NCBI GenBank assembly: GCA_015501585.1
Contig: JADNRY010000130.1
Span: forward strand, 62,001 to 126,000
Origin: Rhodocollybia butyracea
Taxonomy: Eukaryota > Basidiomycota > Agaricomycetes > Agaricales > Omphalotaceae
Direction of reading: 5' to 3'
Length of the DNA stretch: 64,000 nucleotides
In this document: positions 14,661-60,035 of the stretch, one piece after another
Layout: every line of letters begins with the position of its first letter
Position numbering within the stretch: position 1 is the stretch's first letter
Notes under the pieces: model-generated
Told to the model about the DNA's origin: nothing
Database searches by the model: none
Seen by the model: the letters and a program-made list of their open reading frames with translations, nothing else
Position numbers and translations under genes: made by a program

Positions 14661-16905
14661 CATTTCAACAAAAGGCAAAATCAGCTTCTGCTTCCATCCC
14701 TATTAACAATGATGAGACTCACCCATCACCTCCCTTGCTTCCACCACTCCAAACCCAGGTTAGCTTTCAACCTCCCAAACTGAAGCATAGTAGCCTGTCA
14801 TTCACAAAAGATACTCAGACAGAAGTGCAAAAGCAAATGGCACGGCTTCGCAGAATGGAAAAGGCAGCTGAGAGGCAAGAAGCTGTTGAAGCCCAAGCCA
14901 AAGAAGAAAAAATAAAGAAAAAGGATCAAGAGCGAGAACAAGCTCGTGTGCATCAGCAACGTCACCAGAAAAAGCTGAAAGACTTAGAACCTGACAGTGA
15001 GTCAGAGTCAGACTTGACCAATGAACATGCAAAAACTCACCAAAGTCATCCAACCTCGGACCTTGCTGTAATATCTTGTCCTGGGCATGAAGGATATTGT
15101 GAATCTAGAGATGGTTCTCGAGGAGGTGCACACAGAGGTGATGCCAAACACGCCAACTGGTTCCACCCTTTGCTATGGCCACCTATTGACAAGGCAATGC
15201 AGAGAGCAGGTTGGAGTTCTGAGGGTGCAGAAAGATTCTTTGAAGTGAGCACCCAGAGTTTTACACAAGACTTTATCGAGGGACAATTCACAAGTGGAAG
15301 AAGCAGGGCAAGCATGACTGGTCAGAAGAGACAAAGGTTAAGATCATGAGCGGCATGCATTGATTGGAACCAGTAAAGCTGGTGCACTTGCCCAGTTCCC
15401 CATGGTTGTTGCAGAGATTAAAGAATCTCTACAAGCTCTTCACACTGCTGGACTGGTTGTCAGTGTAACCATTGCTCATTCTGTCATACTCAGCTTGATC
15501 CACAAGTGTAACCCTGAACCCTTAACACAACACTTCCAATGCACTGAATCTTATGTTTGCACTTTTCTCCAGTCAGTGATGGATTGGACTCCTTGGGTTG
15601 GGACTCGGGCAGCAGCTCATCTTCCTGCAGATGCCGAAGATCTGTGTGAGTGGGCTTTCTTCCGCCTTGCTTACTGCATGAAGTGGGAGAATATTCCCCC
15701 AAAACTTGTGATTAACTTTGATCAGCAGGGGATCTATCTTTTGCTGAGCGCATCAAAGACTTTCGCTCAGTGAGGTGAACGCCAAGTCTCTGTTGTTGCC
15801 AAAGAGGAGAAACGCGCCTTCACTCTGTGTGTTGTGAGTACAGCTGCAGGTGATTTTCTTCCATTCTAGTGTGTCTGGGCTGGAAAGACCGCAGCTTCAT
15901 TACCATCAGACAATGCACCTGGAATGGCAGAAGCTTGTAGATATGGGTTTCACTTTGCTGTAGCTGCAAGTGAGAAAAGCCCTCGATCCCACTTCAGTAC
16001 CCTCAAAACCATGATTGAATATGTCAAAGAAGTACTGGTTCCATATCAAAAGAAAGTGATTGATGAAGATCCCAGCCTTGATAATGATCAAAAAGCCATA
16101 TTTTACATTGACATCTATCCTGTTCATACTGGCAAACCCTTCCGTCAGTCCTTCATTACTTCTGAAGACTTTATTCTTGCTTTTGTACCTGGTAACTGCA
16201 CTGGAAAGTTTCAACCTGCTGATGTAGGCCTTCAGTGGCCTATCAAGCACATTCTGAAGAGGGAACTCTTTCAATGGATGGTAAATGAGTTTCAGAACCA
16301 GGCTGACCAGGGCATCAGTCCTGAGCAGATAAAAATCACCAACTCATTACCAAAACTCCGAGATGCTTCAGTTGCTGGTGTTGTCAAAGTTTATGAATTT
16401 ATGCAGAGTCTTGAAGGTCGTGAACTGGTCAAAAAGGTATTTTTATTAGCTCTTATCTTTTGAAATGAAAGCTCATCTCAAACTTGGTAAGGCATGGGCA
16501 AAGTCAATGGCAAAAGGATATAACCTTTCTGTGGAGTGCCTTACAAGTAAGGAATCTCATGCAGCACTGAAGGAGTATCTTCGGAATGACAGTATTCTTC
16601 ACACTGAAATTCACGAGAAAACCGGGCAGGATTTGGGTTTGACTGATGATATTCAAGATGCCATCAAAACAGATTTGGACTGTTGTGCCAATTTGCAGGA
16701 TGATATTGATGTGCCATTCAATGAAATTGTTGCAGAGACATTCAATGAGTGGAAGGACAATACTAATATTGTTGCAGGGCTGTATGGCTTGGTTAGTGCT
16801 GCATCAGGTGAGGACATATGGGCTTATGATGATGAGGGGAATCTGTGGTCAGAGACAGGAAATCTTCCAGATATTTCGGGCAACAGTCTCAAAACAGTCT
16901 TGTAG
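14645..16905 (+). pseudogene. DDE_1 (CENP-B/pogo-like) transposase, decayed
   Basis: Three open segments (14,645-15,349; 15,360-16,463; 16,465-16,905) in different frames read one protein in order. First is a charged coiled-coil-like region (about 14,820-14,980), then the DDE core with INFDQQGIYLL (first Asp, about 15,715), FYIDIYPVHTG (second Asp, about 16,110) and GNCTGKFQPADVGLQ (third acidic position, about 16,195), then a tail with NLSVECLTSKESHAAL. These are hallmarks of the DDE superfamily endonuclease common in mushrooms. Breaks include a frameshift near 15,350, TGA at 15,771 and TAG at 15,869. It belongs to a TA-target family, so it is unlikely to be the enzyme that moved E1; its own terminal repeats were not found. 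Confidence 0.7.
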
Positions 16906-24151: not shown

Positions 24152-24156
24152 AGCTT
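24152..24156. repeat. 5-bp target duplication (left) of the gag-only element
   Basis: AGCTT, repeated at 27514-27518. Confidence 0.85.
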
Positions 24157-24409
24157 TGTAACGCCTCCGCCTCTCCATAATCACCACTGACCGTATCCGG
24201 CGATACGGTCATCCTAGACGCCGCCGATAGACCAAACGGTCTATCTTATCATTCTATTTATTATTAATTATATAATAAATCCGTTACTATAAGTATCGTA
24301 CGATTACTTAAGAGTCTAGTTAGTCTTTTACACCGTCGTACACACAATAGTATCCTATTTGTCGTGTTCACCGGTGTTCTTAAGGACTTTGCCCATAGGG
24401 CGCGTTATA
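24157..24409 (+). repeat. 5' LTR of the gag-only element
   Basis: Begins TGTAACGCC. It holds inverted repeats at 24189-24210 (arms GACCGTAT) and 24226-24245 (arms GATAGACC) and an AT-rich TATA-like stretch at about 24,246-24,262. It ends in TTATA rather than the usual CA. Confidence 0.9.
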
Positions 24410-24414
24410 CTTTT

Positions 24415-24441
24415 TTGAACATCAAAAAATACTATTGTGTG
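24415..24441 (+). promoter_or_regulatory. Candidate self-priming primer-binding site
   Basis: ATACTATTGTGTG (24429-24441) is the exact reverse complement of CACACAATAGTAT in the LTR (24341-24353). Just upstream TGAACA also pairs with TGTTCA at about 24,364-24,369 of the LTR. No tRNA-type site is obvious after the LTR. Such pairing between the start of the transcript and the region after the LTR is how Tf1/sushi-type elements prime reverse transcription. Assignment is inference. Confidence 0.5.
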
Positions 24442-24577
24442 AATAACACAAAGCTATTAGTTTAACAAGCTAAAAACAGTTATACTACCAAGTATAACAA
24501 TCACTATTCCAACTCGCTTCAACAAGCTATACAAATCCGCTCCATTTTTCCTTATTGCTATATCATTTGCTGTCCCC

Positions 24578-26920
24578 ATGACCTCTCGAAATCAATCAGA
24601 GAAGTCATATCAGAGTGTGCGCGATCGCGCACATTCCATTCGTGGTGACGTGTCACCACACTCAATCTATTCAGTGGCATCAGCGACTCATTCTGTACGT
24701 GCGTCTGAAGGACGGCACTACAGGCAGGACAAGAGTCCACCTAATGAACAGTCTATGACTATTCGTAAGAAACGGCGAACCCGAGAGGGTTTAAGTGAGA
24801 TTTCTTCTGCGCTACAAGACGTAGCGGCATCACTCGACAAGAGTACGCAAGTACTCAATCGTATTCTCAACATAACTGAGAAATGGGATGCATCTAGCAT
24901 CCGATCTAATGAAGAAAGATCTTCTTCATCGAGAAACAGCAATAGAATCACTATTGCTGCACCCACACCGAGACGGCCTGCCGTCACACCGCCGGTATTG
25001 CACAATGCAGCACCATCTGTTCCTACCGAGGCAAACAACTTGGTACGCCAATGGCGTGAGACTGTGCCCAAGGCACCGTCAGTCCAACAATCACTGTTGG
25101 ACGAACAGTATTCACAAGGGATGACCAAGTCACCCCGTCATGTTCCTGTATTCCGACAGGAATACGCACCAGTGTCAGTAACTATACCGACACCCATCTA
25201 CACATCCCGCATGAGACAGAGTCCCAATGCGGAGGTAGCGTCTCTGACACTGCGAGGTCCCAGGCCATTACCGGTGACCAAATCTTGCTCACCACAAAGC
25301 GCGGTGAACATTAAAAGTGAACCGAAGTTACCTCGTAACTTCAATCAGGTAGTAGCGATACCACCACAGGAAAGTACAATGTACTTCCCTACTGCAAGGG
25401 CGCCAATGGTACCCAATATTATTACACCTCCAGTAGTTGTACCAAACACTACTGGAAATCATTCCAGTATGGGACCGCAACACGGTACCCTTCCGGTAGT
25501 TCCTACTACCATATCCATCGCCCCGGCGACACAAAGTGTTGCCCCTCCAGTAGTACACACTACCATAAGACTGCCCAAATTGCCGCCCAGCAATGCGCCA
25601 GAGCCAAGTTCAATGCCAGTACCAACGGTATTGGCCGAGTTGCAACCACAGCCGCTTCTGTTGGGAGTAGCTAAAGATTGGATGAGTCGCATAGCGATTC
25701 AACGCCAACATAACACCAGTCTCCGAGATTTCGGATTCGCGCCATCTGGGCTTCCCGACCAAATGGTGGGATATAATGTCGACGGAATACCCGTTGATAA
25801 ATTGACTACTCCCAGAGAAATCTGGGATCGATTTTACATTCCACCCGCTGAGTCCTTTCCAGGACCAAGCAATAATGCCGGAGCAAAAGCGCCTAGCAAA
25901 AAATCCCGTGAAGGGGGGAGGAAGCACAAGAGTGCTAAATCCAAAGGCCGCAAACGCAGGCCATGGTCGGATGAATCATCTGACTCTAGTGATACCGAGT
26001 CAAATACTGACTCTTCGTCTGATGCCTCTTGGCTAGACAAATTTGCTACCCGTAAGGGTAAAATTACTCCTAATGAGCGCCGTAAAATACTGCGTTCACT
26101 TGCATCTAAGATGCGAGAAACAACAGGTGACGACGAACGTCGTTCCCGATGGAAACACAAGGTACACAAAGTGTACCGTAAACAAATTCGAGATAAGGTA
26201 GGGAATCCTATCCCTCCCATTGAGAGCCGTAAAGCTCTTAAAGTTCCATCTCCGGAGGTCTATGACGGATCTCCGGATGTCGATGTCTTCGAGCGGTGGC
26301 TAATGTCACTTCTCCAATGGATGGTAGTCAACCGCATGTGCGGTGACGATTACGATGCTACACGGACTGTCGTGCTTGGCATGTTTCTAAAGGGCAAAGC
26401 CCTTGACTGGTATAACGACGAAGTCGCTGGTATACACCGCACTGTCCTTAAGTGGACATTTGAAGGCGCCATCATTGGTGTCTTTGATCGTTGCATCCAA
26501 GCAACGACCATTCATCAAGCTGCACGGCAGTTTGAACTTATTGAGTATTCACCCGATATGGGTGTGAGGGATTATTATTCCTCACTTACACGATGGGCAT
26601 CACGGATGCTCCAAACACCGGATGATGCAACAATGCGGAAACGGTTCATTGAGGGATTACCCTTCAATATTATCAGGCAACTCACAAACGAGGGGATCGT
26701 TCCGGAGTATGCCAAATTAGGAGTGATGGTCAGAGCCGTCACACGCATTGAGGACCACACGGCCCTCACTAAATATTATGTCTCTTCTAGGAATAGAGAC
26801 GATGAACTTGAATCATCAGAACACCCCGATGAGTCGGACACCGAGAACATTAAAAATGTTCTTGAGCCAATCGAGGAGGACACCTCCTTAAGTATCGGAA
26901 AGGATAAACCTTCCGAATGA
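24578..26920 (+). CDS. Retrotransposon Gag protein (780 residues)
   Basis: One uninterrupted frame. Residues 1 to about 540 are low-complexity, rich in Ser, Pro and Arg, with a basic/acidic stretch (KSKGRKRRPWSDESSDSSD) around 455-480. Residues about 555-735 match the retrotransposon gag fold: VYDGSPDVDVFERWL, then GMFLKGKALDWYNDEV, then FDRCI and VRDYYSSLTRWASRM. There is no CCHC zinc knuckle and no pol domain. The DNA of the frame is unusual: about 45 short inverted repeats with arms of 4-9 bases and loops of 0-10 bases follow one another through the whole gene. Examples are 24617-24632, 24642-24659, 24841-24856, 24937-24959, 25082-25102, 25324-25342, 26161-26177 and 26845-26861. Confidence 0.85.
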   Translation: MTSRNQSEKSYQSVRDRAHSIRGDVSPHSIYSVASATHSVRASEGRHYRQDKSPPNEQSMTIRKKRRTREGLSEISSALQDVAASLDKSTQVLNRILNITEKWDASSIRSNEERSSSSRNSNRITIAAPTPRRPAVTPPVLHNAAPSVPTEANNLVRQWRETVPKAPSVQQSLLDEQYSQGMTKSPRHVPVFRQEYAPVSVTIPTPIYTSRMRQSPNAEVASLTLRGPRPLPVTKSCSPQSAVNIKSEPKLPRNFNQVVAIPPQESTMYFPTARAPMVPNIITPPVVVPNTTGNHSSMGPQHGTLPVVPTTISIAPATQSVAPPVVHTTIRLPKLPPSNAPEPSSMPVPTVLAELQPQPLLLGVAKDWMSRIAIQRQHNTSLRDFGFAPSGLPDQMVGYNVDGIPVDKLTTPREIWDRFYIPPAESFPGPSNNAGAKAPSKKSREGGRKHKSAKSKGRKRRPWSDESSDSSDTESNTDSSSDASWLDKFATRKGKITPNERRKILRSLASKMRETTGDDERRSRWKHKVHKVYRKQIRDKVGNPIPPIESRKALKVPSPEVYDGSPDVDVFERWLMSLLQWMVVNRMCGDDYDATRTVVLGMFLKGKALDWYNDEVAGIHRTVLKWTFEGAIIGVFDRCIQATTIHQAARQFELIEYSPDMGVRDYYSSLTRWASRMLQTPDDATMRKRFIEGLPFNIIRQLTNEGIVPEYAKLGVMVRAVTRIEDHTALTKYYVSSRNRDDELESSEHPDESDTENIKNVLEPIEEDTSLSIGKDKPSE

Positions 26921-26940
26921 TTTATTGGTTTATTCCAACG

Positions 26941-27180
26941 CCCAGGTAATATGCCTTACCTGGGCATCACTACTTATCCTCAGCCCGGATTCTCACTGAG
27001 AATCCTCATTAAGCAATACTCGGAAACTTCCGAGTCTGCGCGTTGAACATTCGGACATTTCCGAATCAAATCATGCTCTAGTGGTACGCCCCACTATTGT
27101 TTGATTCGGACAAGTCCGAAAATCTGATGCGCCGCATCAATTAATCCCGTACTTGATACGGGATCATTCTATGTTAAACC
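26941..27180. repeat. Row of unrelated small inverted repeats in the 3' part of the gag-only element
   Basis: After the gag stop codon come 26941-26964 (arms CCCAGGTAA), 26987-27005 (arms GGATTCTC), then CTCGGAAACTTCCGAG, a TTCGGA/TCCGAA set, TGATGCGCCGCATCA and CCCGTACTTGATACGGG. Each has a different arm sequence and a short loop. Confidence 0.8.
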
Positions 27181-27248
27181 AAATTAAAAATGGTTTGGAT
27201 GGTGATGATGTCATTACCATTTTCAATTCACATCCCTGATGTTAATCT

Positions 27249-27260
27249 GGTGGGGGAGGG
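27249..27260 (+). promoter_or_regulatory. Polypurine tract
   Basis: GGTGGGGGAGGG directly before the right LTR, the expected plus-strand primer. Confidence 0.8.
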
Positions 27261-27513
27261 TGTAACGCCTCCGCCTCTCCATAATCACCACTGACCGTAT
27301 CCGGCGATACGGTCATCCTAGACGCTGCCGATAGACCAAACGGTCTATCTTATCATTCTATTTATTATTAATTATATAATAAATCCGTTACTATAAGTAT
27401 CGTACGATTACTTAAGAGTCTAGTTAGTCTTTTACACCGTCGTACACACAATAGTATCCTATTTGTCGTGTTCACCGGTGTTCTTAAGGACTTTGCCCAT
27501 AGGGCGCGTTATA
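27261..27513 (+). repeat. 3' LTR of the gag-only element
   Basis: Almost identical to 24157-24409 and followed by the target duplication AGCTT (27514-27518). Confidence 0.9.
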
Positions 27514-27538
27514 AGCTTGACACGCAATGGGCACATGT

Positions 27539-28856
27539 TCATGATGATACATATGTTGGTGGAGCCGCATCCGATTGTCCATCTCCTGTCCAGTCAAGCT
27601 GAGATTCAAGGCGGTGCATATGTTCCACCATCCTGCCAATGGTAGCCTCCATTTTTACCACCTTTGCCCGCACATCATCCTGGTCTACACTATCCAAGTT
27701 CTGAGTAGAAGAAGCTGGTTGAAGAAGTGATGAGCCTGGAACACTCGAAAGAAAGTTTGACTTGGGATTTTTAGGGGTGGAGATGGCTGCGGCTTCAGTC
27801 TGAAGTATTGGTGTGTGATTAGTTTGGATACGGCGTCCCTTTTCTTGTGTTGGGGATGTTATGCCACTGGGAACAATGTCAATGCCCAAGGCATCAGGTC
27901 CATATCCATGTCTCATGTCTTGTCTCAAAGGGGAGATATGGCCCAATGCCTTCACTTGTTGACGCTGAGAGTCACGTCGACGGTGATACACAATCATGAA
28001 TATGCCGATGCCCGCAGTGAGCACAAGTAGTGATCCAATCACTGCTCCTACGATGGCACCTGTGGAAATTGAGTGCCTTCATGAAAACTTAGTATGGTCG
28101 CTGCTAAAGAATGGATTCTGACATACTTTGATGCAGAGGTACATCAGGAAAAGCCGTTTTTGCCTAGGTGACCCTAGAGTGGCCTAAAGCAAACTAGGTG
28201 ACCTATGAATCCTATGGCATCCTAGGAATTTGGGCTCGTCCCTTGCCAGTAAAGGCTCTTGAGGATTCCCTAGGCAAGCCTAGGTTTGCCCAGGTTTGCC
28301 CAGGTGCTCCTGGGGACTTGCCCTGGGTTTGCCTAGGATACCCTAGGGAATCCTCAAGAGCCTTTACTGGCAAGGGACGAGCCCAAATTCCTAGGTCACC
28401 TAGTTTGCTTTAGGCCACTCTAGGGTCACCTAGGCAAAAACGGCTTTTCCTGATGTATGATTGGCTCCCATTTCTGTCTGGCTTCCACTTGGAACTCCCC
28501 TAAGCAAATGAGTGTTTTTAGGAATTTTGCAAGTGAGGTCTGAGGAGCTATCGAAATGGGAAGTACACAAACGTTGAAGGTGATGAGGTATTTTTAGTGT
28601 CGATGCTAGCGATAGGGCTAACAGTTGTAAGGATGCCTGTAACAATGGATACCCTCACGCGACTTGTAGTACTCACACTAGAGGGCTCTGTATGGGCAAC
28701 AAAAACAGTGGAACCAGCCGCGTTCGTAGTACTTGCACTAGAGGGCTCTGTATGGGTAACAAAAACAGTGGAACCAGCTGCGTTTGTAGTAAGCAGTATA
28801 GACTGTATAGTAGGGGCACTAGTAATCTGAGGGTTATCAGTACTGCTAGTTGACAT
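27539..28856 (-). pseudogene. PPxY membrane-protein family, copy 5, exon 2 split by a MITE
   Basis: Exon 1 is 28573-28856 and its Ser/Thr-rich product contains a tandem repeat (NAAGSTVFVTHTEPSS and NAAGSTVFVAHTEPSS). Intron 28500-28572. Exon 2 starts at 28499 and is interrupted by a 314-bp palindromic MITE (28142-28455) with TA on both sides. After the MITE the exon continues to 28127 (donor GTATGT), and exon 3 is 27539-28076, encoding the span (HSISTGAIVGAVIGSLLVL), helix and APPPTYVSS. Reading into the MITE meets TAG at once. Without the MITE and one TA the frame is open for 292 residues. Unless the MITE is spliced out, the copy is dead. Confidence 0.8.
28142..28455. mobile_element. Palindromic MITE with CATCAGGAAAAG ends
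   Basis: The inverted ends start CATCAGGAAAAGCCGTTTTT and the whole element is close to a perfect palindrome with GCCTAGG repeats in the centre. It is flanked by TA (28140-28141 and 28456-28457), as in Tc1/mariner-type MITEs. A close relative is at 63118-63480. Confidence 0.8.
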
Positions 28857-41766: not shown

Positions 41767-44300
41767 ATGTCTTTAGACAAGGCTATTGACGCGGAGAAAG
41801 GTTCCTTCGAGGAACAAGAAGGGCAACGCCGCATTGACTTGGCCAACAATGTGAATGCTAGGTAAACTTATTATCGCGCCGCCGCCGGGCCATGCTTATC
41901 TTTGTTTTAGAATCCAGAACCCCCTTCACGGAATACCCAAAACAAAGCTCTTATCTCAGGTCGAAGCTTTCGCACAGGAGAAAGGTTTGGAAGAAGCTCT
42001 TCCTTTCCTGAGAAAGGGTGCCGTGCTCGCACAAAATCCAAAGGGCTTTGAAACCCAGCCCGAGCTTGACGAAGAAGACCGCGCCATTCTTCGTCGTGAA
42101 ATCACCCGTATGTTCAATCCACCTCTTTCCCACAGATCTATAGTTATCTATTCGGATTCTAGACAAGTGGTCACAGCCGAGGGATCTTTACATGACGGTC
42201 ATCATCTGCTCTATTGCCGCTGCCGTCCAGTATGTTCTTGCCGTTCAATAGCTTGCTCCACTCATTTTAAAATATCATCAGAGGGTGGGATCAAGAGGGC
42301 TCTAACGGTGCAAACTTGTCCTTCCCTCTAGCACTTGGCATCGATGACACCCCTAGTGCACCCAATGCTTCTGCAAACCAGTGGCTAGTTGGGCTTATCA
42401 ACTCTGGGTATGTACTCGCCACTTCATTTCTCTCTCTAATTTACCAGTGATACTCCTCAATAGTCCTTACGTCGGATCTTCACTGCTGGGTTGCTGGCTC
42501 ACGGATCCCTTGAATATCCGTACATTTTTCAGAATATTTTGCGGCCCGATACTTACTCATGCGCTGTATCTTAGTCTTGGGACGTCGTGGAACAATATTT
42601 GTTGCGGCCGTTTTCTGTACCCTCTCTGTCATTGGATCTGCTTGCTCACAAACATGGGAACAATTATTAGTAAGGTGCTTTCCGTCAACTAATCCAGTAC
42701 TTTCTGACCGCTACGCTTTAGGTTACTCGACTTTTGCTTGGTATTGGTATGGGTGCCAAAGCCGCTACTGTTCCCGTCTATGCTGCTGAAAATACACCGG
42801 CAAGTATTCGAGGAGGGTTGGTCATGTCTTGGCAGTTATGGGTGAGTTTGACATTCCAATCATCGATTTCAAAGATATTGATACTTCGACAGACCGCATT
42901 CGGAATTTTCCTTGGTACTACCGCCAACTTGATTTTGTTCCAAGTTGGCCCTATCGCATGGCGTCTGCAGTTCGGGTCTGCCTTCCTTCCTGCTGTCCCC
43001 CTTGCCCTAGGTATATACTTCTGCCCAGAATCACCCAGAGTACGTACTTTTTTTGACCCCTCAGTGCAACTGAACCTATCAACTCTTTGCAGTGGTACAT
43101 GAAGAAGGGACGTTACCAAGAAGCCTATAAATCACTCAAACGTCTCCGAAATTCTAAACTGCAGGCTGCCAGAGATCTGTACTACGTTCACAGACAGATA
43201 GAGGAAGAGTTTGCAGTCCTCAAAGGATCCACTTACTTCTCTCGATTCATCGAGCTGTTCACTATCCCTCGAGTTCGCCGTGCCACCCTTGCTTCATTTG
43301 TTGTTATGATTGCCCAGCAGATGTAAGTGTAGTAGGCTTTTCTTTTCCAAGTTTGCTTTGAACTTTGCACAGGTGCGGTATCAACATCATAGCCTTCTAC
43401 TCCTCCACCATTTTCACAGAAGGTGGGTTCACGACCAAGCAAGCATTGCTTGCTACTTTCGGCTACGGTTTGGTTAACTTTTTATTTGCGTTCCCTGCTG
43501 TCTGGGTGAGGAGAATCAGTACTTTCCACTGTGCACTTCTTCTCACCGGGTTTGACAGACTATCGATACTTTCGGAAGACGTAACTTACTTTTGTTCACC
43601 TTCCCTAACATGGCATGGACCCTGCTTGCCGCTGGAATGTGCTTCTTTATTCCTACCACGAGCGGAGCGCGCTTGCCTCTGATTGCTCTCTTTGTGTTTT
43701 CCTTCGCTGGTATGGAATCTTCATGGCTATATTCCATGTCTAATCTCACTTTTGTCGACAGCAATCTATTCACCTGGAGAGGGACCCGTTCCATTCACAT
43801 ACTCGGCCGAAGTTTTTCCCCTCACTCACAGAGAAATGGGGATGTCGTGGGCAGTCGCGACTTGTTTTTTCTGGGCTGCGGTGTTGGGTGTGACCTTCCC
43901 TCGTATGCTAGATGTCATGACCCCCCAAGGAGGTATGTCAGTTTCCAAAGTCGCTCCTTCTCTTCCTGATTGTTTTCTCCACAGCTTTCGGTTTCTATGC
44001 TGGACTTAATGTTATTGCATTTTTTATGATCTTCTTCCTTGTGCCTGGTCCGTATACTGCCTATTTTCCTTGAGAATAGTGCCTAATATTTGCTTAGAAA
44101 CTAAACAACGCACACTCGAGGAACTCGACTATGTTTTTGCAGTACCTACATCCAAGCATATGTCGTACCAGGGGACCGTCTTCTTCCCGTTCTGGGTCAA
44201 GAAGTGGGTATTCTGGCGCAGAGACACTGTACTCCCACCCTTATATAACTTTGATGAAGTCGAGAGTATAACTGTATTTGAGAGGGGAGTCGGCCACTAA
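41767..44300 (+). CDS. MFS sugar transporter (intact, 14 exons)
   Basis: Exons: 41767-41861, 41911-42107, 42163-42229, 42282-42407, 42464-42519, 42575-42669, 42722-42841, 42893-43039, 43093-43322, 43373-43505, 43559-43709, 43762-43932, 43985-44047, 44098-44300. Together they give 617 residues with no stop. Family marks appear in order: LGRRGTIF after transmembrane segment 2, [25 protein letters not shown] closing the N-terminal half, [41 protein letters not shown], and [14 protein letters not shown] at the end. These are typical of the sugar porter family of proton-linked uptake carriers in the plasma membrane. The roughly 100-residue lead before the first segment is longer than usual. The closest fungal types are hexose or polyol/inositol carriers; substrate cannot be read from sequence. 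Confidence 0.9.
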
Positions 44301-44628
44301 AGCTATGTTCTATACTGATGAATTTTGCTCAGCATCATGATTTCTGATGTGTCCTGCACAAAAAGAGAATTCAAAGGCAGTTTGCCTTTTGTGGGATGAT
44401 CTTTTGTCTTATATCATAAACTCTTATGCCAACTCTGTACCTCATGAGTCATCATTAGAAAAGATGAAATTTTTTTGTGTTAACATAAGCATATGTCACT
44501 AAGGACTTGGTCAGTCGTTGAGATTCTGGGAATCGCAGTCTAGTCCTTCCGCGGGTAAGCTTTAAATCCACTTGACACTCTTTGAGTCCAGGAATAGGTA
44601 AACTGCCGAGGGTGCAATTAAAGCTAAC
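44301..44628. other. 3' flank of the transporter gene
   Basis: Non-coding. No terminator signal beyond A/T-rich sequence is visible. Confidence 0.4.
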
Positions 44629-44780
44629 TGTAATGCCTACGGCACGTTCATTGCCGTTAGCGCCGATACTACATAATTAGTTCACTCCTATCTTTGTACC
44701 ACCTACTCGTTTCGGTCTATTTCTCTAATAGAACGAGACCTTGCTCATGGTCTGAGGCATTAAGAGTCAGGGCTCTTACA
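44629..44780 (+). repeat. Solo LTR, 152-bp family
   Basis: TGTAATGCC...GGCTCTTACA, flanked by CTAAC on both sides (44624-44628 and 44781-44785). It is the same LTR as the element at 58,735-62,581, in opposite orientation. Confidence 0.85.
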
Positions 44781-45085
44781 CTAACGGCTCCAAGATCTCC
44801 CAATTAGTGCACAAAAAGTCCGGTTCGGTCCGGTCCACAGCCATTTTTTGAGGACTGAGGACTGGACTTTTGGTCCGGTTCAGGAAAATTTCGGACGCCA
44901 GGACTGGACCGTTAGTCCGCCAAACTTCCGTCCGGTTCAGGTTCTGAACGTGTCCGGACTTTGAATGCAAAAATCATCATGATTAAAATACTATTATGCA
45001 GTAAATTAATCATTATAGCCCCAAAATCTCCAGTAGCATCTTCAAACTCATTCCAATGCTGCCATAAAATCTACCATAGGCTGGG

Positions 45086-45272
45086 CTGCTGAGATATGAC
45101 CGCTGCTGAGATATGACCACTGCTGAGATATGACCGCTGCTGAGATATGACCGCTGCTGAGATATGACCGCTGCTGAGATATGACCGCTGCTGAGATATG
45201 ACCGCTGCTGAGATATGACCGCTGCTGAGATATGACCGCTGCTGAGATATGGCCGCTGCTGAGATATGACCA
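45086..45272. repeat. 17-bp minisatellite, about 11 units
   Basis: Head-to-tail copies of CTGCTGAGATATGACCG, nearly identical, inside the hAT element. The open frame across it on the minus strand is a product of the repeat, not a gene. Confidence 0.9.
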
Positions 45273-45369
45273 GTTCTGAATTGTCTAACATTTCAAGACC
45301 AAGACAAAGTCAAGAAACAGTGTTAGAGAGTGATGTACTTAGCTTGGAACTACACCATCTCGATGCAAC

Positions 45370-45910
45370 TAAGGATATGAGTCCAGGTCCTAACAGGTGA
45401 CCCGCGGATTCGACACGTGGGAATACCTGTCTGACCCGGATCCGCCGGATCCAGGTCAGTCACAGGTCATCCTTTGGTGACTTCCAGACCTTGTAAAGTG
45501 TCGAGCGTCATGCGCATCTACGCACGAAACTCGTCATATTATCTAAGTATCTTTACAGTATATAATCTATGTACTCATACTGAGACAAATGGAGATCTCT
45601 TTCTTCCCAACCACCACCACTACTTCAGTATCTTGGAGATACCTCCCAGAGATGCATAGGGACTGGCTATATCACAGGCAGGTCCCCCACCAAACTTGAT
45701 ACTTGATTCCAAGTGCAGACTCAATCAATGTATCTCATAAAGTACTATTTTAGTACCAATACCTGCAGATTGACCTGCATGACCTGGATCCGGCGGATCC
45801 AGGTACCCGTTTCCCACGGGTCCGGGTCAGTCACGGGTCAGGATTATTTTTCGCCGGTACCCGCATGGCAGATCTGGGTTGTCCGGGACCCGGACTCGTG
45901 TCCATCTCTA
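45370..45910. mobile_element. hAT-type MITE nested in the hAT element (541 bp)
   Basis: Flanked by GATGCAAC (45362-45369 and 45911-45918). The ends are TAAGGATATGAGTCCAGGTC and TAGAGATGGACACGAGTCCG. Internal CGGATCCGCCGG- and GGATCCGGCGGATCC-type segments are inverted copies. Confidence 0.75.
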
Positions 45911-46343
45911 GATGCAACACTATGTATGTCACTTACACCTCATACATAGTAAATTGTTTTAGACTGTAAAAAGCATGAAAAATGCAGGCATAGCTCTCAG
46001 AGACTCAGTTCTTGTGAAGCCTCCGTTACATGCCCTGTAACATGGATAGCTCCTCAACTCATGTTCCTATCAACATTCACACCAATTTCTCTAAACACCA
46101 AATTACCTCATACATCTTTCTAGCCTGATATGAGTGTGAACTTAATTATATCCTTGAACATGTCCGAATGCATCCGGACGCATTATGGACGTGTCCCAAA
46201 TCTCTAAGATCTAAGATTGGCTGAACATTGAACTGAACTTCAGGTCCGGTCCGGAAAATTACAGGACCGTGAACCAGACTTTGAGTCATGTCCGAAAAAG
46301 TTCAGTCCGGACACAGGTTCAGGACTGAACTTCTTGTGCGCTA

Positions 46344-46780
46344 CTCCCAATAAGTCCCTTCAAATACCTCGAGACGGTCTGTGAGATACTTGACTGCCAC
46401 GATGTTGGAAGCTGTTTTTACGCTCATGAGCATCCTGGAGCTATGATTAGATACTCTGCTCATGATGGATGTCCTTGTTGGGCAAAAATAATCTAGCTGT
46501 GCATGCTGAATTTAGGCCTATTACTTATATTGCAAACTTGGGATTATCCATGATGTCATGGCATTTTACAGAAATCGCATGACATCATTAGGGATAGGGC
46601 GTATCTTCGGGTAAAGCGACTGCACGGTATATTCTTTTATCTAAACATTTATCTATGTTTCCATCGTTGCCTTGATTGTTGTTTCATTTATGCACATGAT
46701 GCCCAGAAGTATGTTCCTTTTTACTTTCATTGCTGGATACTTTGTAGTGACTCCCTCAGAGTGTTCTCTTATCTCTGAGG
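46344..46780. other. Non-coding stretch between hAT elements
   Basis: No gene seen. One short inverted pair around ATGATGTCATGG (about 46,549) is noted. Confidence 0.4.
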
Positions 46781-47303
46781 CAAGGGGTATTCAAAAGCTT
46801 AAGGCCAGACATGACCTTGTTTTTCGGCCATAAGGAATTTTTAGGCCCCCCCCCCCCCTCCCCCGCCCCTTATATAGAAATTTTTTCCCACCCCTAGTAA
46901 CCGGCATCACCGGCACATAGTGTTTGTCAGTGCTGGCACTACCGGCCATGCCTTATTGGTGCCATTGTAGGCATGTTTTGACAATTACCTACCTGTGGCA
47001 TGGGGGATTTGAGTAGTATTACAGTGATCAGTTGCACAGGCAACATTTTTGGCAGGAAGTTTGGAGTCATTAGTACCATGTTCTGAGCTCAACTAAGAGG
47101 GAAACTTGGTTTCTTGCCTTTTTGGACTCCAATTTACGCTGATTACACCCAAATGTGTTAAAAGGGTACAAAAAGCATTTGTGCATCATTTAATCATCAT
47201 TAGAACATGGTTATATAAGGTCGGATCTTTCGGCCATAAGCCAACTTTAGACCCCCCCCCCCCCCAACGTCATGTCAGCGCTTAAATTTTTGAATACCCC
47301 TTG
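46781..47303. mobile_element. hAT-type MITE (523 bp)
   Basis: The ends are CAAGGGGTATTCAAAA and its inverted copy, with the 8-bp duplication CTCTGAGG (46773-46780 and 47304-47311). C-runs lie at both subterminal regions. Same family as 10,748-11,117. Confidence 0.85.
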
Positions 47304-47873
47304 CTCTGAGGTGAACTTATTTAGTTTTTTTACGCTTACTTGTGCTAACAAAGTCTGAAGCTATAGCCTGTGTACTTTGTTAGGTATTTATTAATACAGA
47401 GTGTGCTCTTATCTCTGAATGATAGCTTATTGTATACTTTGTGAGCTCTTACAGTTTTTTCTGGGACTCAGCTGGTGCTTCTGTGCCTCGAGGCAGAGAA
47501 GTTTGAAAAAATTTGGACATCAGATGGAAGCATCCTATGGATAGGACCAACACTCACAAACAAAGACTTCAAAGGAACCTTGTAGTATTCGGCAATACAT
47601 TGGGATTGTACAATAAGATGATCAAGGTGAGAGTAAAAGAAGAAGAGAAGAAGCAAAAGTCAGAGTGTAGCTTTAAATATGTATGTATTTAGAGTAATAA
47701 CGTGACTAGCATGTGATTGTCAAGTAATCGCGCTAACGTGTTTACATCCCTACCCAACTAAAAGCATTATATATATAGGAAGGGGAGAAGAAGAAATGAA
47801 AGGGAAAAAAGGGAAGGAATGATTAAAAAAAAGGCATGAAGCAAAAGCATGAGTTAAACAAAATGAGTGCAGC
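47304..47873. other. Non-coding stretch
   Basis: No gene could be supported; purine-rich towards its right end. Confidence 0.4.
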
Positions 47874-48025
47874 TGTAAGAACCCTGACTCTTAATGCCTC
47901 AGACCATGAGCAAGATCTCATTCTATTAGAGAAATAGACCAAAACGAGTAGGTGGTACAAGGATAAGAGTGAACTAATTATGTAATATCGGCGCTAACGG
48001 CAATGAACATGCCGTAGGCGTTACA
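47874..48025 (-). repeat. Solo LTR, 152-bp family
   Basis: TGTAAGAACC...GCGTTACA in minus orientation, flanked by GCAGC (47869-47873 and 48026-48030). It has its own target duplication, so it is not an LTR of the adjacent chromovirus. Confidence 0.85.
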
Positions 48026-48034
48026 GCAGCACAC

Positions 48035-48716
48035 TCAGTCAACCAAATCAAAGAGCTTATCAGGGCCATCACCACCATGTTGTATCCACTCATCAAGGCA
48101 GGAGCAATCCTTCAACAGAGTGTAAGAGATCCAGCAATCTTCACTGGGTGCTTGACTGACCAAGCGGATTAAGAACTGCCAACTGCATTCGCGGCGGTGC
48201 GAATCCAGTACACAGTCAATCTCATGTTCAGGGAACCCATTCACAATAGTAGGATCAGGGCAAACAAGTTCACGACCAGGAAACAGAACAGGGTCATTAG
48301 GGACAAAACATTTCAACTGGTCCACATAGAAGGAGGGGAAAGCACCAGGTTGATTGGGCATGTCAAGTGTGTAGTGAGAGGTCTCGGAATAGGCCTTGAT
48401 AATTTCGTATGGCCCATCAAACCGTGGAAAGAATTTTGTAACATGCTTTTTGCCAGTTTTCTTGAAAATGTCTTGACGATTCCAAGTTGAAAGTAAGACA
48501 AGATCACCAACCTCAAATAACTTGCAAGGCCCATGGAACTTGTCAGCATGATAAGCCTGCACAACCTTTGCCAAAGTAAGATTATCCTTAGCCTCAAGTT
48601 CAATTAGATTCATCTGGGCAAGGAAGTCCCAAGCATCGGCCTCATTGCAAGACAGGTCAGATTTCTCAATGGATTTATCCGTCACTAAATGAGGCAGAAC
48701 TCTCAGTGCATGGCCG
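48035..48716 (-). pseudogene. Chromovirus integrase C-terminus and chromodomain-like end
   Basis: Reads AYHADKFHGPCKLFEVGDLV, typical of the region after the integrase core, then a chromodomain-like part with EHEIDCVLDSHRRE, WQFLIRLV and SEDCWISYTLL, ending at a stop. The chromodomain would direct integration to marked chromatin. It is joined to the core at 49,587 once the 48,717-49,586 insert is skipped. Confidence 0.75.
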
Positions 48717-49586
48717 TGTCACAGATGGAACATGGATAGTGTAAGGATCTAGGCGGAATCCTTTGAGCCCGGGTTACAAACCTGGAAACCAAAGTGCGGA
48801 TACGCTCCGTACTGCCGTCGTTCAGCCGAACTGGGAAAGTTGGTTTGAGATGTGAAAGGATGTGAGTGTAGAGCAGTTCCAAAGTGCCTATGGGATGTAA
48901 GACTCGTGTTGGGATTGTCCAAGGGACTAATGCCATAAGGACGGCAGGTCCGTACAGGCGATATAATGAACTCGGCGAGTAAGCCTAAGGGTAGATGAGT
49001 TTCCGACTCGAAGGGTAGGACCCACTAAGTGCAAGCGGCTTTGATAGCGATATGAGCGGAAGCGGAAGGTCAAGCGGTAGCTGACCTGATGCGGCGCAAA
49101 CAGAGCAGAACCAAATAGATGATAGTAGATTGCAGAGGTTGTGAAAACGATGGAGTGAAGAAACAGAGTTAAAGAAACAGATAAAGCGAGAAACCAGAAC
49201 ACACAAGAGCACACGAGTCAAGGGGTTAAGCAATATTTCCAATCTACTGTACTTGACATGGTACGGAACTATATAAAGGGTACTCGAGGACCGGAGTAGC
49301 AATAGGTAATAATCTGAGAGTAGAAAAGACAAGAATAGCCAAAAGAAGTACAAGGGATGAAAGACAACAATGAACATAAGTGGAAGCGGCGGGATGAGCA
49401 TAAAGCATATGTATGATTGTAAGAATGATGGAGAATGGATCGACGGGATCATAGAAAGTGTACAGTGAAGGAAAAAGTAAAACGGAAGCAAAGTGGAAGT
49501 GTATCGGAACCGGAAATGCGGCGGAAGTGGGTTATGTAATGGTAAGCAGGAAACGTCGGCAGTCTGTATATGCCTAGGGCATGACA
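48717..49586. repeat. LTR-like insert (870 bp) in the integrase
   Basis: Starts TGTCACAG and ends CATGACA. It has TATATAAAGG near 49,270 on the plus strand and no coding capacity. No clean 5-bp duplication was found, so a solo LTR with later loss of flank is the best guess. Confidence 0.5.
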
Positions 49587-50285
49587 GATAGGTCTGTTGT
49601 AGCCACCAAGGAATTCATCAAATCAAACTGAATTTTTGGGAGCCATTTTGACCACCCCTTTTGGTTGCACTCTAGCTACATAGAAACGGATGCATTGGTT
49701 AACTGTTTTATTAATACATTCACTGCTTCCATCTGTTTCAGGATGAAAGGAGGTGGACATCTTCTGTTTGATGTTGGCCAGCTTACACAGAGCCTTCCAG
49801 AAAGCAGATACAAAAAGTTTGTCATGGTCAGATACCACATCAAGAGGGAGACTGTTATCACAATACCAATGGTCAAAGAAGAGTTGAGCAAAATCCTTAG
49901 CCATAATATCCACTCGAGTGGGTACAATTTTAATGTCAGAATTCATGTGGTCAGTCATGGTTACAATGCAGTCAAAACCATTATCCTCAGGTATAGGACC
50001 AATGAAATCAACAGCAACACTATCACAGCGAGAATCCGGAACTGGTAAAGGGTGGAGTGGGCCTTTTGGATTTTTCCCAGTGTGTCCCTTGTTGCGTTGG
50101 CAGTCTTTGCGGCCTGGGGCATAAGATTTATACAAGCCTTTATGCATACAGGGCCGAAAGTATGAACCCGCTAGTAGGGCATAAGACTTATCAGCACTGA
50201 AATGGCTGCAAGTATCATGGGCCAAATGATATAGCTCCTCACGGAGTGAACCAAAATTGGGAATGTAGAGACGTCCATCAACATA
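49587..50285 (-). pseudogene. Chromovirus integrase core
   Basis: Contains the zinc-binding HTDC-like start (HDTCSHFSADKSY...) with CQRNKG. The core DDE residues are kept: VAVDFIGPIPED, VVSDHDKLF and SSECINKTVNQC. The frame breaks at about 49,620 before the insert. It would insert cDNA into the genome if intact. Confidence 0.75.
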
Positions 50286-51350
50286 TCAGAGGCCATTTAT
50301 GTTCTCAATTCCAGGGACAAGGTTACCACCATTTTCAAGCTTGTGTACAAAAGGATCATTGACATAACCTTGTTTCAAGCTCTGCAGAAAGGACAAATCT
50401 GCAGATATGGATAGAACTGATGCACAGGTGAAAGGGTTGTTTTTCCATTGCTCAACTGTTTCAAATTCAACATCCAAACCAGGAGGTCCACCATCAAATT
50501 GGCTTTCAGCATCTGAAAGTAGGCAACCACAAGGAATGCGGCTCAAGGCATCAGCAGCACAATTATCTTTGCCACATATATAAGCCACTTCAAGTTCAAA
50601 CTGACTTGGACTGAGTTCCTCTTGCCAGCAAAGCTATTGGCAACTCAAGTCTTTCTGACCATCAAAGTTTACAAATGTACAGTGATCAGTTAGGACATGG
50701 ACATGCATGCCCAAACAGTTAGCATGCTACTTCCATAGTAAGCCTACAATAGCAAGAAGATCTTTTTCATGAACTGGGTAATGAAGCTTAGGACTGGAGA
50801 ACTGAGCAGAATCAAAGGCAACGGGGCAAGCAGAATCCAGGTTAGGACCCCACATAAGAACTGTAGCATGACAAGAGTCGCTTGCGTCAGTCACCAGAAA
50901 AATTTTATTATCACCGGGGTTGTCATGGTCAATAGTACTCAGCACCTTCCTACTGGAAACAAGTGCTTTTATAGAGACAAAGGCATGTTCATATTCCACT
51001 GTCCAAAGTGGAAAGTCTTTATTGTATTCACGTTTTGTCAAAGGTGTAAGCACGTGTGTGAACTCAGCTAGATCAAGTTCTAAGTATCCTGCAATGAAGC
51101 GCACCATGCCTAAAAAACGACACACTTCTGAAGTAGATGTTGGAGTAGGAAAATTCAGAATAGATTCACATTTTGAATCCTGTGCATGGATGCCATCTGC
51201 AGAGATGTGGTGACCGAGAAAATCTAAGGAAAGCTGGTAGAACAAGCATTTCTTAGGATTACAGAACAGTTTGTCTGCTCTGAGTGCATAAAGCACAAGG
51301 CGGACATGACAATGGAGTAGGGTACTCCAGTCGGACCTGCCCTTAGTCAA
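50286..51350 (-). pseudogene. Chromovirus RT end and RNase H
   Basis: Reads FCNPKKCLFYQLSLDFLGHH and IAGYLELDLAEFTHVLTPLT (RT thumb/connection), then FLVTDASDSCHATVLMWG and HYPVHEKDLLAIV (RNase H), then CGKDNCAADALSR. There is a stop near 50,640 and a break at 51,350-51,416 next to the RT core. Confidence 0.8.
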
Positions 51351-51415
51351 TCACGTGGTATCATCTCGTAGTAGATCCATTGTCATTAGTAGATCTCAGG
51401 TCATACAGTCATGTT

Positions 51416-52108
51416 CTAGTCACTACGAGCCCAGTTCCCACTCGCTGTATCCTCAGCGGACCACTCTGGCCCACTCCAACGAGCATGTTCTTCCTCAGAA
51501 GAAGACCAGATAATGATATCATCAATATAAATGTGGCAGAATTTTCCAATGTAAGGGTGCAGAGCCTGGGTAACATGTTGTTGTTGAACAGCTGGGGCAT
51601 TACGAGGGCCCTGAGGCATGACCAACCACTCATATTGGCCTAGGGGGGTCTGGACTGAAACTAAAGGAACTGAATCCGGATCCATTTTGCACTGAAAGAA
51701 TGAGTCAGTCATATCCATCTTGCCAAAAATCTTTCCTTTGGCACAATTGGCCAGGATTGTATCAATCCTAGGTAAAGGATGACAATCTGGGACAGTGTTT
51801 GCATTTAATTTATGGAAATCATTGACCCAATGAGGAAATGCTGTGCGGTCTGCTTTTGGAACTAGGAAAGCCGGGGAAGAGAACTGTGAGGATGAGGGAC
51901 AGATACAGCCAGTCTCCAGGTGGCGCTGAATAAGCGTAGACCAAGCTTCCTTATATTTTCGAGGAGAAGCATTTCCATTTGATTGAATAAGATGGTTTTG
52001 GTTTGCTTCCTTGAGTTTGATGCTGCATGTGATATCTGAAGCCAATTCATCTATATGCGGAATAGGACCAAAAACATCTGAAACTTTCAATGTGAGCACA
52101 GACAGCAC
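51416..52108 (-). pseudogene. Chromovirus reverse transcriptase core
   Basis: Carries DFHKLNANTVPDCHPLPRID, FGKMDMTDSFFQCKMDP (first Asp), LVMPQGPRNAPAVQQQHV and HIYIDDIIIWSS (the YIDD active site). Open across the core, broken at both ends. Confidence 0.85.
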
Positions 52109-52126
52109 CTACAACGTCTACAGGTT

Positions 52127-52879
52127 TCACGGGTCAGAATGGCATAACTCAGGGTGTTTATCAAAGTATCGCCCAAGTTCCAGAAGACAGTACTTCATTG
52201 ATTGGAGGGGACATTTATGAGAAAGAGAGCAACAAAGTTTGGGAGAAATAGAGTGAACAGGGTTAAGAGAAGCAACATAAGTATTTGGATTAAGAAGATC
52301 AAAACCAGACTTTTTATCAGTTACAGTGCAGGCCTCATAGTTGATAACAAGTGAATTGTGAGTTAGAAAAGGTAAGCCGAAAATAATAGGAGAACAGAGA
52401 GATGGAAGGACAAGAGCACAGATGGAATGTGAAGACCAGGCCAAGGAAGGATCATCAGCAGAAAGTTTACAATATTCAGTAGCTTGGAAAATTTGTGGTA
52501 CACTGTTTGAGATAGCAAGGGACATTTCCTGGGGTACAGGCATAGTGTGAAGCCTTAAGCCTAACAAATGAACCAAGTCAGCATGAATTAATACAAAAGG
52601 ACAACCGTCATCAGGCAAGGCATCAATCACAACAGGCTCAGCCAAATTAGTGCCATTCAAGGAACATTTCCACTTCATATGGGGTAAGGAAAAGGGCATA
52701 GGACTCACTTCAGGATCGGCAGATTTGGTACTTGGACCTGTGTCAGCCGTGACAACAGGAGCCCAAGTGACAGGGTGCAATCTGGGACAGCAGCGGCATT
52801 GGCGCACAAGAGGGAGTGTTGGACATGACACGATGAGGGGCAGGTGAACAAGAACGAGAGCGGGAGATGGAACGAACAT
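52127..52879 (-). pseudogene. Chromovirus protease region
   Basis: Reads an aspartic-protease-like segment (VVIDALPDDGCPFVLIHADL, then FGLPFLTHNSLVINYEACTV), typical of fungal Ty3 elements. The Asp-Ser/Thr-Gly triad is not kept as such, so activity is doubtful. Confidence 0.6.
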
Positions 52880-55095: not shown

Positions 55096-56049
55096 TCAAT
55101 TAAAGAGAATTCCAAGACTGTTGCAGAATTTCTGAAATTTGACAAGTGCAAGGTTCTTCGTGAGAAGATCTCCAATGTTATCATCAGTAGGAACATAGAA
55201 GAGTTCAATTTCCTTTGATTCAATGCGTTCTCTGATGTAATGATATTGTATATCAATATGCTTGGTTCTTCTTTCTTGTACAGGATTAGATCCCAGAAAG
55301 ATTGATCCTTGATTATCACCACATAAGAGCAATACAGCAATAGTAATTCCGATCTCAGAAAAAAGAGACTTGAGCCACATAAGTTGTCTACATGAATCAG
55401 ATAAAGCCATGTATTCAGCTTCAGTCGATGAAAGAGCAACTGTTTTCTGTTTGTGAGAAGTCCAGCAGATTGGACCTGTGGCAAGTTTGATAATCATCCC
55501 AGTATGGGATTTTCAATCATCTGGACCCGAGCCCAGTCAGAATCACAATAGGCTAAGAAGCCATGGTCAGATTTACCATCAAAGACAAGTACGTAAGCAG
55601 AAGTCCCAATCAAGTAGCGCACAATGTAAAGTGCTTTGGCCAGGTGGTCTGGGTTTGGATTCACCGAATACTGATAACGGCATAAGCAATATCAGGTTGG
55701 GTGCCTAACATTAGATACAATAAAGATCCAATTACACTTTGGAAGCCTTGGCTTAGTTTGGCATCTAAACAACCAGTTTTTGCACGAGGAACCCAGGATA
55801 AAGGTACTGGGGTTGGGGTAGCTTTGGCATTAGTCAGTCCAAAATGTTCTATGACCTTTCAAAGATAAGGTTGTTGGTCAAGTGTTAAGATACATTTGGA
55901 ACGATCCCATGTAATCCGCATTCCAAGGAACTCAGTTGGTTCTCCTAGATCACGACATTCCCATAATTTCATAAACTTGTTTTTCTTTTTAAGAACAAGA
56001 TCTTAGTCCTTGCCAAGAAAGAGTGCGTCATCAACATAGATAATGGCAG
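55096..56049 (-). pseudogene. Copia RT second half and RNase H
   Basis: RNase H (55,096-55,497) is open and reads QKTVALSSTEAEYMALSDSC, then GDNQGSIFLGSNPVQERRTKHIDIQYH in two parts and VPTDDNIGDLLTKNL. The region 55,498-56,049 holds the IYVDDALFLG active site (about 56,010-56,045) followed by stops and shifts. Confidence 0.8.
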
Positions 56050-56649
56050 TTACGGTTTTGCCATTTGATTTAAAGACATATACACCAGCATCTGAAGAGC
56101 AGCGCTTAAATCCCAATTTTCCCATGGAGGTGTAACATTCCATAAGCTAGCTTGTTTCAGTCCATATAATGCACAATGTAACTGCCATACTTTTGGTGTG
56201 CCTTCTTTGATGAAGTCTTTAGGTTGTTCCATGTAGATCTCTTCATCTAGCTTGCCATATAGAAAAGCCTGTTTGATGTCAAGAGCCTGGATTTCCCAGT
56301 CCTCTAATGTGGATAAAGCTAGGAGAGCTTGTACAGTTTCAAACCGGGCAACCGGTGAGAACAACTCATTATAATCCACACCTTCTACTTGTGAAAAACC
56401 TTTTGCTACAAGTCGGGCTTTATAGAGACCCTCAGATTTTTTAGTAAAAAACCATTGACAACGGATAGGTTTGCGACCTTTTGGTAGATCAACTACTTCA
56501 AAGACATTTTGTTTCTTCAAACCATCGATCTCATCTTTGCATGCTTGATCCCATTTCTTTCTTTCAGCAGATGGTAAATGATGATATGATGTTGGAGAAA
56601 TCCAATTATCAGGATTATTCCTAGCGGCTTTGTGTTTAGCTGGTATCAT
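56050..56649 (-). pseudogene. Copia reverse transcriptase, first half
   Basis: Reads KWDQACKDEIDGLKKQNVFE, LPKGRKPIRCQWFFTKK, ARLVAKGFSQVEGVDYNELF and IQALDIKQAFLYGKLDEEIY, then ALYGLKQASLWN. Open but cut off from the active-site part by a frameshift. Confidence 0.85.
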
Positions 56650-58734: not shown

Positions 58735-58886
58735 TGTAAGAGCCCTGACTCTTAATGCCTCAGACCATGAGCAAGATCTCGTTCTATTAGAGAAATAGAC
58801 CAAAACGAGTATGTGGTACGAGGATAAGAGTGAACTAATTATGTAATATCGGCGCTAACGGCAATGAACGTGCCGTAGGCGTTACA
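58735..58886 (-). repeat. 3' LTR of the non-autonomous element
   Basis: 152 bp, TGTAAGAGCC...GGCGTTACA in plus-strand reading; closely matches 62432-62581. Confidence 0.9.
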
Positions 58887-58983
58887 CATGCTCCCTAGAA
58901 TGACCCCACAGGTCCATCTTACCCAAAAAAAAAACAAAAGAGAAAGATGGAAAAGGGAAGACATAACAAAGAGAAACATACAG

Positions 58984-60013: not shown

Positions 60014-60035
60014 ATTGCTGTAATAGTCCGAGGCA

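Follow-up and report, generated by a model that had tools for sequence, protein, structure and literature searches.

A gag-only LTR retrotransposon of Rhodocollybia butyracea with an excess of short inverted repeats in its coding and non-coding parts

Introduction

How can a reading frame be crowded with small hairpins and still encode a protein? The question is raised by positions 24157-27513 of a 64-kb window (the whole stretch of DNA analyzed here, 64,000 nucleotides of one contig) from the 95.6-Mb genome of the fungus Rhodocollybia butyracea. A first-pass annotation described these positions as a gag reading frame made almost wholly of small inverted repeats and unlike its neighbors. We find that they hold a young non-autonomous long terminal repeat (LTR) retrotransposon with a single Gag-like open reading frame (ORF) and a large excess of inverted repeats. 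The repeats are restricted to short loops and are nearly confined to this element, with a weak excess in some other LTR families. The ORF is under purifying selection, and variants other than deaminations are depleted in the stems. The explanation that we favor, with slightly better than even confidence, is that this is a Ty3/Gypsy-type element whose sense RNA is selected for a genome-long chain of short hairpins while the Gag-like protein remains constrained.

Excess of Short Inverted Repeats

The features of the element are listed by window position.

24152-24156: target-site duplication AGCTT, left copy, from the sequence
24157-27513 (+): whole gag-only element, delimited by paired LTRs and the target-site duplication
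24157-24409 (+): 5' LTR, 253 bp, with one difference from the 3' LTR
24188-24211 (+): inverted repeat in the 5' LTR, hairpin with 10-bp arms
24226-24245 (+): inverted repeat in the 5' LTR, hairpin with 8-bp arms
24410-24577 (+): leader, with hairpins at 24411-24429, 24435-24451 and 24479-24498
24578-26920 (+): single Gag-like ORF, 780 codons
24937-24959 (+): exact inverted repeat in gag, 9-base arms, loop AATCA
25450-25469 (+): gag hairpin with the single clean compensatory change (25457/25462)
26921-27260 (+): 3' untranslated region (UTR), assessed by inverted-repeat count and by fold z against dinucleotide shuffles
26940-26965 (+): inverted repeat in the 3' UTR, hairpin with 10-base arms
27249-27260 (+): polypurine tract, within the 3' UTR and adjoining the 3' LTR
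27261-27513 (+): 3' LTR, 253 bp, paired with the 5' LTR
27514-27518: target-site duplication AGCTT, right copy, from the sequence

The coordinates of the first-pass annotation are therefore those of the element; the coding frame is the shorter interval 24578-26920. Inverted repeats were counted as non-overlapping and perfect, with arms of at least 5 bases and loops of 0-8 unless stated otherwise. The ORF holds 43, compared with 15.98 ± 3.29 (maximum 25) in 300 shuffles that keep both the protein and the codon usage; the corresponding counts are 26 vs. 4.7 for arms of at least 6 and 13 vs. 1.42 for arms of at least 7. The reported density of the frame is thus real, and the ten repeats given as examples are all exact, with arms of 6-9 bases. 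“Almost wholly” overstates it, since 23% of gag bases lie in stems with arms of at least 5; hairpins of this class extend over 32% of the body, and the stem share is 35% with arms of at least 4. The body holds 40 hairpins with arms of at least 6. As had also been reported, repeats continue in the non-coding parts, with 9 in the 3' UTR (2.6 ± 1.4 in dinucleotide shuffles), 5 in the LTR (2.1 ± 1.3) and 3 in the leader (1.5 ± 1.0).

As a second control, the same geometry was counted under nine other symmetric base relations. This base-relation control gives 47 vs. a mean of 14.3 and a maximum of 21 for gag, and 28 vs. 1.8 for arms of at least 7 in the element. The rest of the window yields 194 vs. 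195.9 and 310 vs. 275.9, no excess when taken together. In a scan by 2-kb windows, the element reaches z 7.0 twice, and the next values are 3.2 (44001-46000) and 2.5 (46001-48000). Mirror and direct repeats occur in about the expected number. For arms of at least 6, the excess is found at loops of 1-6 (26 vs. 3.5) and weakly at 9-11 (5 vs. 1.5), with none beyond; at loop 0 it is slight (1 vs. 0.32).

The arms all differ, and the hairpins share no loop or stem motif other than A-rich loops. Regular spacing was rejected, the spacing being random, as was a codon-register bias: hairpins with arms of at least 6 number 8, 8 and 10 by register, more than the null in every case. Two Rfam matches fell far under the gathering score and were judged to be chance.

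A Young Gag-Only Element and Its Genomic Copies

Paired LTRs with a single difference, the target duplication, the polypurine tract and dispersed multiple copies identify the element as an LTR retrotransposon. No pol was found inside it, and the Ty3/Gypsy succession of reverse transcriptase, RNase H and integrase is thus absent; between the LTRs lies a gag ORF alone, the arrangement that characterizes TR-GAG elements. A search of its own genome (at most 3 mismatches) recovered 153 LTR-leader (5') junctions and 246 tract-LTR (3') junctions, and no junctions with a reversed control pattern. Judged by eye among the first 100 listed of each, 5' and 3' junctions on the same contig are mostly 2.6-2.9 kb apart, corresponding to gag only, and some pairs are 3.2-5.4 kb apart. 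The two longer interiors examined (L075 and L076; C529 and C922) belong to the same family and carry extra sequence.

Two further copies (L042, C739; L043, C465) align abnormally in the 3' part past element position 2732, which would follow from an insertion or from an altered 3' end; the sequence of L043 is also truncated by the limits of the region taken.

No TGG start of a tRNA-type primer site was seen directly after the 5' LTR, and the 64-kb window contains no tRNA genes. A perfect 13-base complement joins 24341-24353 in the 5' LTR to 24429-24441 in the leader, 20 bases past the LTR. This is reminiscent of the self-priming of Tf1-type elements, or of pairing between U5 and leader.

Distribution Among Other Retrotransposons

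We then compared 20 gag-bearing loci, drawn from 147 Retrotrans_gag matches in the same genome, and six longer pieces, using the ratio of the inverted-repeat count to that under the control relations, adjusted for composition. The ratio is 3.9 in the gag-only element, and 0.98 and 1.02 in host DNA. Two families show a weaker excess, X (1.61 in L064, 1.82 in L069, 1.65 in L072) and Y (1.75 in L063, 2.12 in L070, 1.91 in L071, 1.63 in L073); the 18 other sampled loci and L074 range from 0.76 to 1.43. Within the window, a Copia-like element identified by Pfam matches (55900-60200, -), of a family unrelated to the gag-only element, has a ratio of 1.69, and the remnant of a Gypsy element (48035-52879, -), recognized by matches to a Tf2-1-like SH3 domain and to reverse transcriptase, has 0.98. 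The claim that neighboring genes do not look like this holds for host DNA, but the window Copia and, elsewhere in the genome, autonomous Gypsy families have an excess of their own.

X and Y are autonomous Ty3/Gypsy elements whose single ORF carries reverse transcriptase, RNase H and integrase zinc-binding domains. Their ORFs or ORF parts exceed codon shuffles by z 2.6 to 5.3, and 1.5-kb pieces across gag and pol give z -0.1 to 3.7; at arms of at least 7 both families are close to the controls. Judged by eye, their LTRs start with TGTAAC followed by a TTTTGA-AC-type sequence, the ends of X lacking confirmation by a second LTR. The gag-only element resembles them in its 5-bp target duplication, its TGTAAC LTR start and a possible distant homology to the gag of X. 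It differs in lacking pol and in the strength of the excess (3.9x vs. 1.6-2.1x), and its DNA similarity to either family is at chance level, with nothing beyond 15-base matches. Among the 120 relatives listed (of 718) of a reverse transcriptase from this genome, those with names come from Candolleomyces, Pisolithus, Mycena, Grifola, Trametes, Pleurotus, Ganoderma and others, the named genera all being Agaricomycetes.

Constraint on the Protein and on the Stems

On weak evidence, the ORF appears to be Gag-like. Its Retrotrans_gag match (residues 602-694) scores 14.2 bits, below the cut-off of 24.1. The gag of family X, itself above that cut-off, aligns with it at 27.7% identity over 83 aa (BLASTP E 6e-9, 20 proteins compared); with these 20 proteins phmmer reported no match. 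A search of ~5.8 billion proteins with the whole gag scored 7993 candidates, none of them a closer relative at E ≤1e-3. Viral-contig scans with gag and with an X reverse-transcriptase piece, and a degenerate gag-motif pattern run on the own genome, returned nothing. A single match in a PDB sequence search (E 0.078) was judged to be chance, and a predicted fold of residues 530-780 was set aside at a mean pLDDT of 41.

For the analysis of variation, 48 loci were reduced to 35 copies, including the window copy, by dropping 11 duplicates and merging four into two; L075 and L076 are outside this set. Nineteen copies cover more than 3000 positions and 16 are partial, all mapped pairwise to the window copy. 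Variants were split into the deamination type (C to T, G to A) and all others, and sites at which another base is commoner than that of the window copy (25 of 3357) were excluded from the stem-conservation counts. More than 70% of CpG positions vary among the copies, compared with ~10% of other C/G positions. The copies thus decay chiefly through deamination-type changes at CpG, as expected of methylated CpG.

The protein looks constrained. For non-deamination variants, the ratio of non-synonymous to synonymous changes per opportunity is 0.32 among those in at least 3 copies and 0.58 among all; for deamination variants it is 0.57 and 0.86, respectively. Residues 1-780 are covered without a stop in 11 of 63 rows.

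Deamination takes no account of the stems, affecting 72% of CpG positions inside them and 75% outside hairpins (stratified odds ratio 1.07, p 0.6). With stratification by base and codon position, non-deamination variants are about half as frequent in stems as elsewhere (odds ratio 0.49, p 5.5e-5). When the stem map is shifted circularly, none of 2000 shifts reaches this depletion; within gag, with codon phase kept, two of 2000 do. The odds ratio is 0.37 (p 0.009) for variants in at least 3 copies. By region, varied sites number 15/336 in stems vs. 76/584 elsewhere in the non-coding parts, 10/181 vs. 66/539 at third codon positions, and 4/171 vs. 33/548 at second positions, the last not significant (p 0.07). 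Because deamination ignores the stems and other variants are halved there, the stems appear to have been kept by something that acts before insertion. The earlier proposal that protein and folding are both under constraint is supported by these figures. Cells in which both bases of a pair changed to another Watson-Crick pair number 15 at the true partner vs. 0-5 at partners slid by 1-3, but deamination explains most of the pair types (see below).

Sense RNA as the Proposed Folded Molecule

Folded as RNA, 24578-25500 is more stable than 20 dinucleotide shuffles (z -9.8), as is the 3' UTR (z -9.2, 100 shuffles). Local fold energy in gag lies below the codon-shuffle means at z -16.8 for the plus and -11.3 for the minus strand (60 shuffles), and at -12.0 and -11.6 in a run of 40. 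Two features point to the sense strand. Loops in gag are 44% A vs. 32% in codon-shuffle loops (p 7e-4), and loops of the body with arms of at least 6 contain A 44, C 26, G 11 and T 19%, compared with 28, 26, 22 and 24% elsewhere. The plus-minus difference in local fold relative to codon shuffles is z -2.3 in the element; it is -2.2, -1.7, -0.4, -0.4, -2.1, -0.8, -1.4 and +0.5 in X/Y pieces (negative in seven of eight), and -0.6, +0.3, -1.0, +0.3, +1.6 and -1.1 in six controls. Closing pairs in gag are C-G in 23 cases and G-C in 3 (p 0.002).

Several observations weigh against selection on the RNA. Codon shuffling alone yields z of -2.5 to -4.7 in five of six control genes, and the fold z values above therefore overstate the effect. 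The C-G closing preference is strand-neutral, A+C (p 0.079) and G (p 0.075) content is not significant when gag loops alone are considered, and A is not enriched in the loops of X and Y. Mismatches in gag stems show no preference for G.U (15, vs. 13 A.C), and such near-equality is unlike the usual outcome of long RNA selection. Single-change cells across the copies are likewise close to balanced (119 G.U, 104 A.C), as neutral decay is expected to give. First codon positions show no stem depletion (11/175 vs. 38/551). Nine of the ten types of both-changed pair are C-G to T-A, which deamination on both strands explains; only one clean compensatory change was found, A-T to G-C at 25457/25462 in 6 of 6 carriers. 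The compensatory change predicted by the first-pass annotation is thus present in one pair, close to the absence that it had named as telling against hairpin selection. Finally, L073 and L071, which are 83.6% identical, share 29 inverted repeats of 76 and 73, or 39% vs. 22-38% for the control relations. Repeats of the weak families are replaced almost as quickly as chance ones, in keeping with weak selection or with mutation.

Evidence of moderate strength, short of proof, supports the sense RNA as the molecule under selection. The earlier proposal of a folded RNA gains from the A-rich loops and the strand difference and loses by the equality of G.U and A.C.

Proposed Mechanism and Alternative Explanations

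If the hairpins are selected in the RNA, the sense transcript would fold locally throughout the LTR, leader, ORF and UTR. From this we infer a general advantage of folding, which could be protection against nucleases or host silencing, or a compact shape that helps the RNA to enter particles. A general benefit fits better than one local signal because the hairpins are random along LTR, leader, ORF and UTR, their arms differ, no motif exists beyond the A-rich loops, and the excess in the relatives includes pol. Since the element has no pol, reverse transcriptase and integrase would have to be borrowed from another element, and competition to enter borrowed particles could drive a gag-only element to extreme folding. 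The broader proposition, that LTR retrotransposons of this mushroom are under genome-long selection for RNA folding, coding sequence included, only weakly in the autonomous families and to an extreme degree in a gag-only parasite, seems to us evenly balanced.

Among the alternatives, a mutational origin survives best, although we consider it unlikely. Fold-back copying by reverse transcriptase or repair would make and keep perfect palindromes without any benefit, and inverted duplication by template switching is a described process. It would account for perfect arms, short loops, the lack of G.U preference, the quick turnover between L073 and L071, and an excess that several LTR families show and host DNA lacks. 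If copying folds back, multi-base variants that copy a nearby arm are expected. Two single-copy variants do create arms, of 9 bases (25041-25046) and 7 bases (26599-26604), but among the 29 listed multi-base variants in at least 3 copies none gains an arm of at least 7, three gain an arm of 6 and two lose one. Nor does this process predict A-rich sense loops or C-G closing, though it might itself favor stable hairpins, and most other Gypsy families, which are reverse-transcribed too, show no excess.

Improbable, in our judgment, is a role of the hairpins as dispersed packaging signals for the element's own Gag, with assembly rather than general folding being selected. A gag-only element must load its own RNA into particles, hairpins occur along the entire RNA, and the ORF sequence has a basic stretch at about residues 430-470 that might suit such a role. 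Against it stand the random spacing, the lack of a shared motif besides A-rich loops, and the excess in pol of autonomous families. In Ty1, moreover, up to 5 kb of the interior is dispensable for transposition, according to the part of PMC4974528 consulted.

About as improbable is a feature of the DNA, in which palindromes would be kept as double-stranded or cruciform-prone sequence for protein binding, chromatin or promoter function. The palindromes are Watson-Crick-symmetric without a wobble preference and occur in the LTR also, but their excess peaks at loops of 1-6 and is slight at loop 0, the loops are A-rich on the sense strand, the differing arms offer no common binding site, and the excess continues through the coding frame. 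Chance, composition or codon usage is refuted by the codon shuffles (43 observed, 25 in the best of 300), dinucleotide shuffles, base-relation controls and composition-adjusted ratios (3.9 vs. 0.98-1.02 in host DNA), even though five of six control genes also have mildly low energies relative to codon shuffles.

Selection on the sense RNA would make this element a natural coding sequence under two simultaneous codes, within a mobile element with more than 150 junctions, and limits on mushroom retrotransposon RNA (silencing, decay, packaging) would become directly testable. Genome-long folding selection, if true, would imply strong RNA-level pressure on the mobile elements of these fungi through silencing, decay or particle entry. 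If fold-back errors are responsible instead, the repeats would be a strong trace left by mutation. In both cases, the signal can be measured in sequence and is graded among the families of one genome.

Relation to Known Systems

TR-GAG elements are gag-only non-autonomous LTR retrotransposons described in plants. The element resembles them in its LTRs, gag-like ORF, many copies and lack of pol, and differs in its fungal host and in the inverted-repeat excess of coding and non-coding parts, which TR-GAG titles and abstract openings do not mention. Small RNA viruses carry dispersed packaging signals, many short hairpins across a small RNA genome; the element likewise has many short hairpins but no shared loop motif. 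Its folding energy and pairing go beyond sequence-matched controls along the whole element, coding sequence included, which recalls the genome-scale ordered RNA structure (GORS) of RNA viruses as presented in the part of PMC9784701 consulted. The differences are that the element is a retroelement and its structure a predicted one; the link of GORS to persistence or shielding could apply here by analogy at most. Titles and abstract openings of the literature matches listed, a set outside which subscription papers and preprints fall, describe no hairpin-studded retroelement. The main text of PMC3248453, on LTR retrotransposons in fungi, contains none of the terms inverted repeat, hairpin, palindrom, secondary structure or self-priming.

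Other Features of the Window

Ten further window ORFs gave no Pfam match. A DDE_1 transposase-like fragment lies at 15924-16463 (+). Downstream of the element, 28140-28457 is a nested long inverted repeat, rich in CCTAGG and similar to a small foldback element, with outer arms at 28140-28210 and 28387-28457 (71 nt, 99%) and inner arms at 28221-28294 and 28322-28395 (74 nt, 91%).

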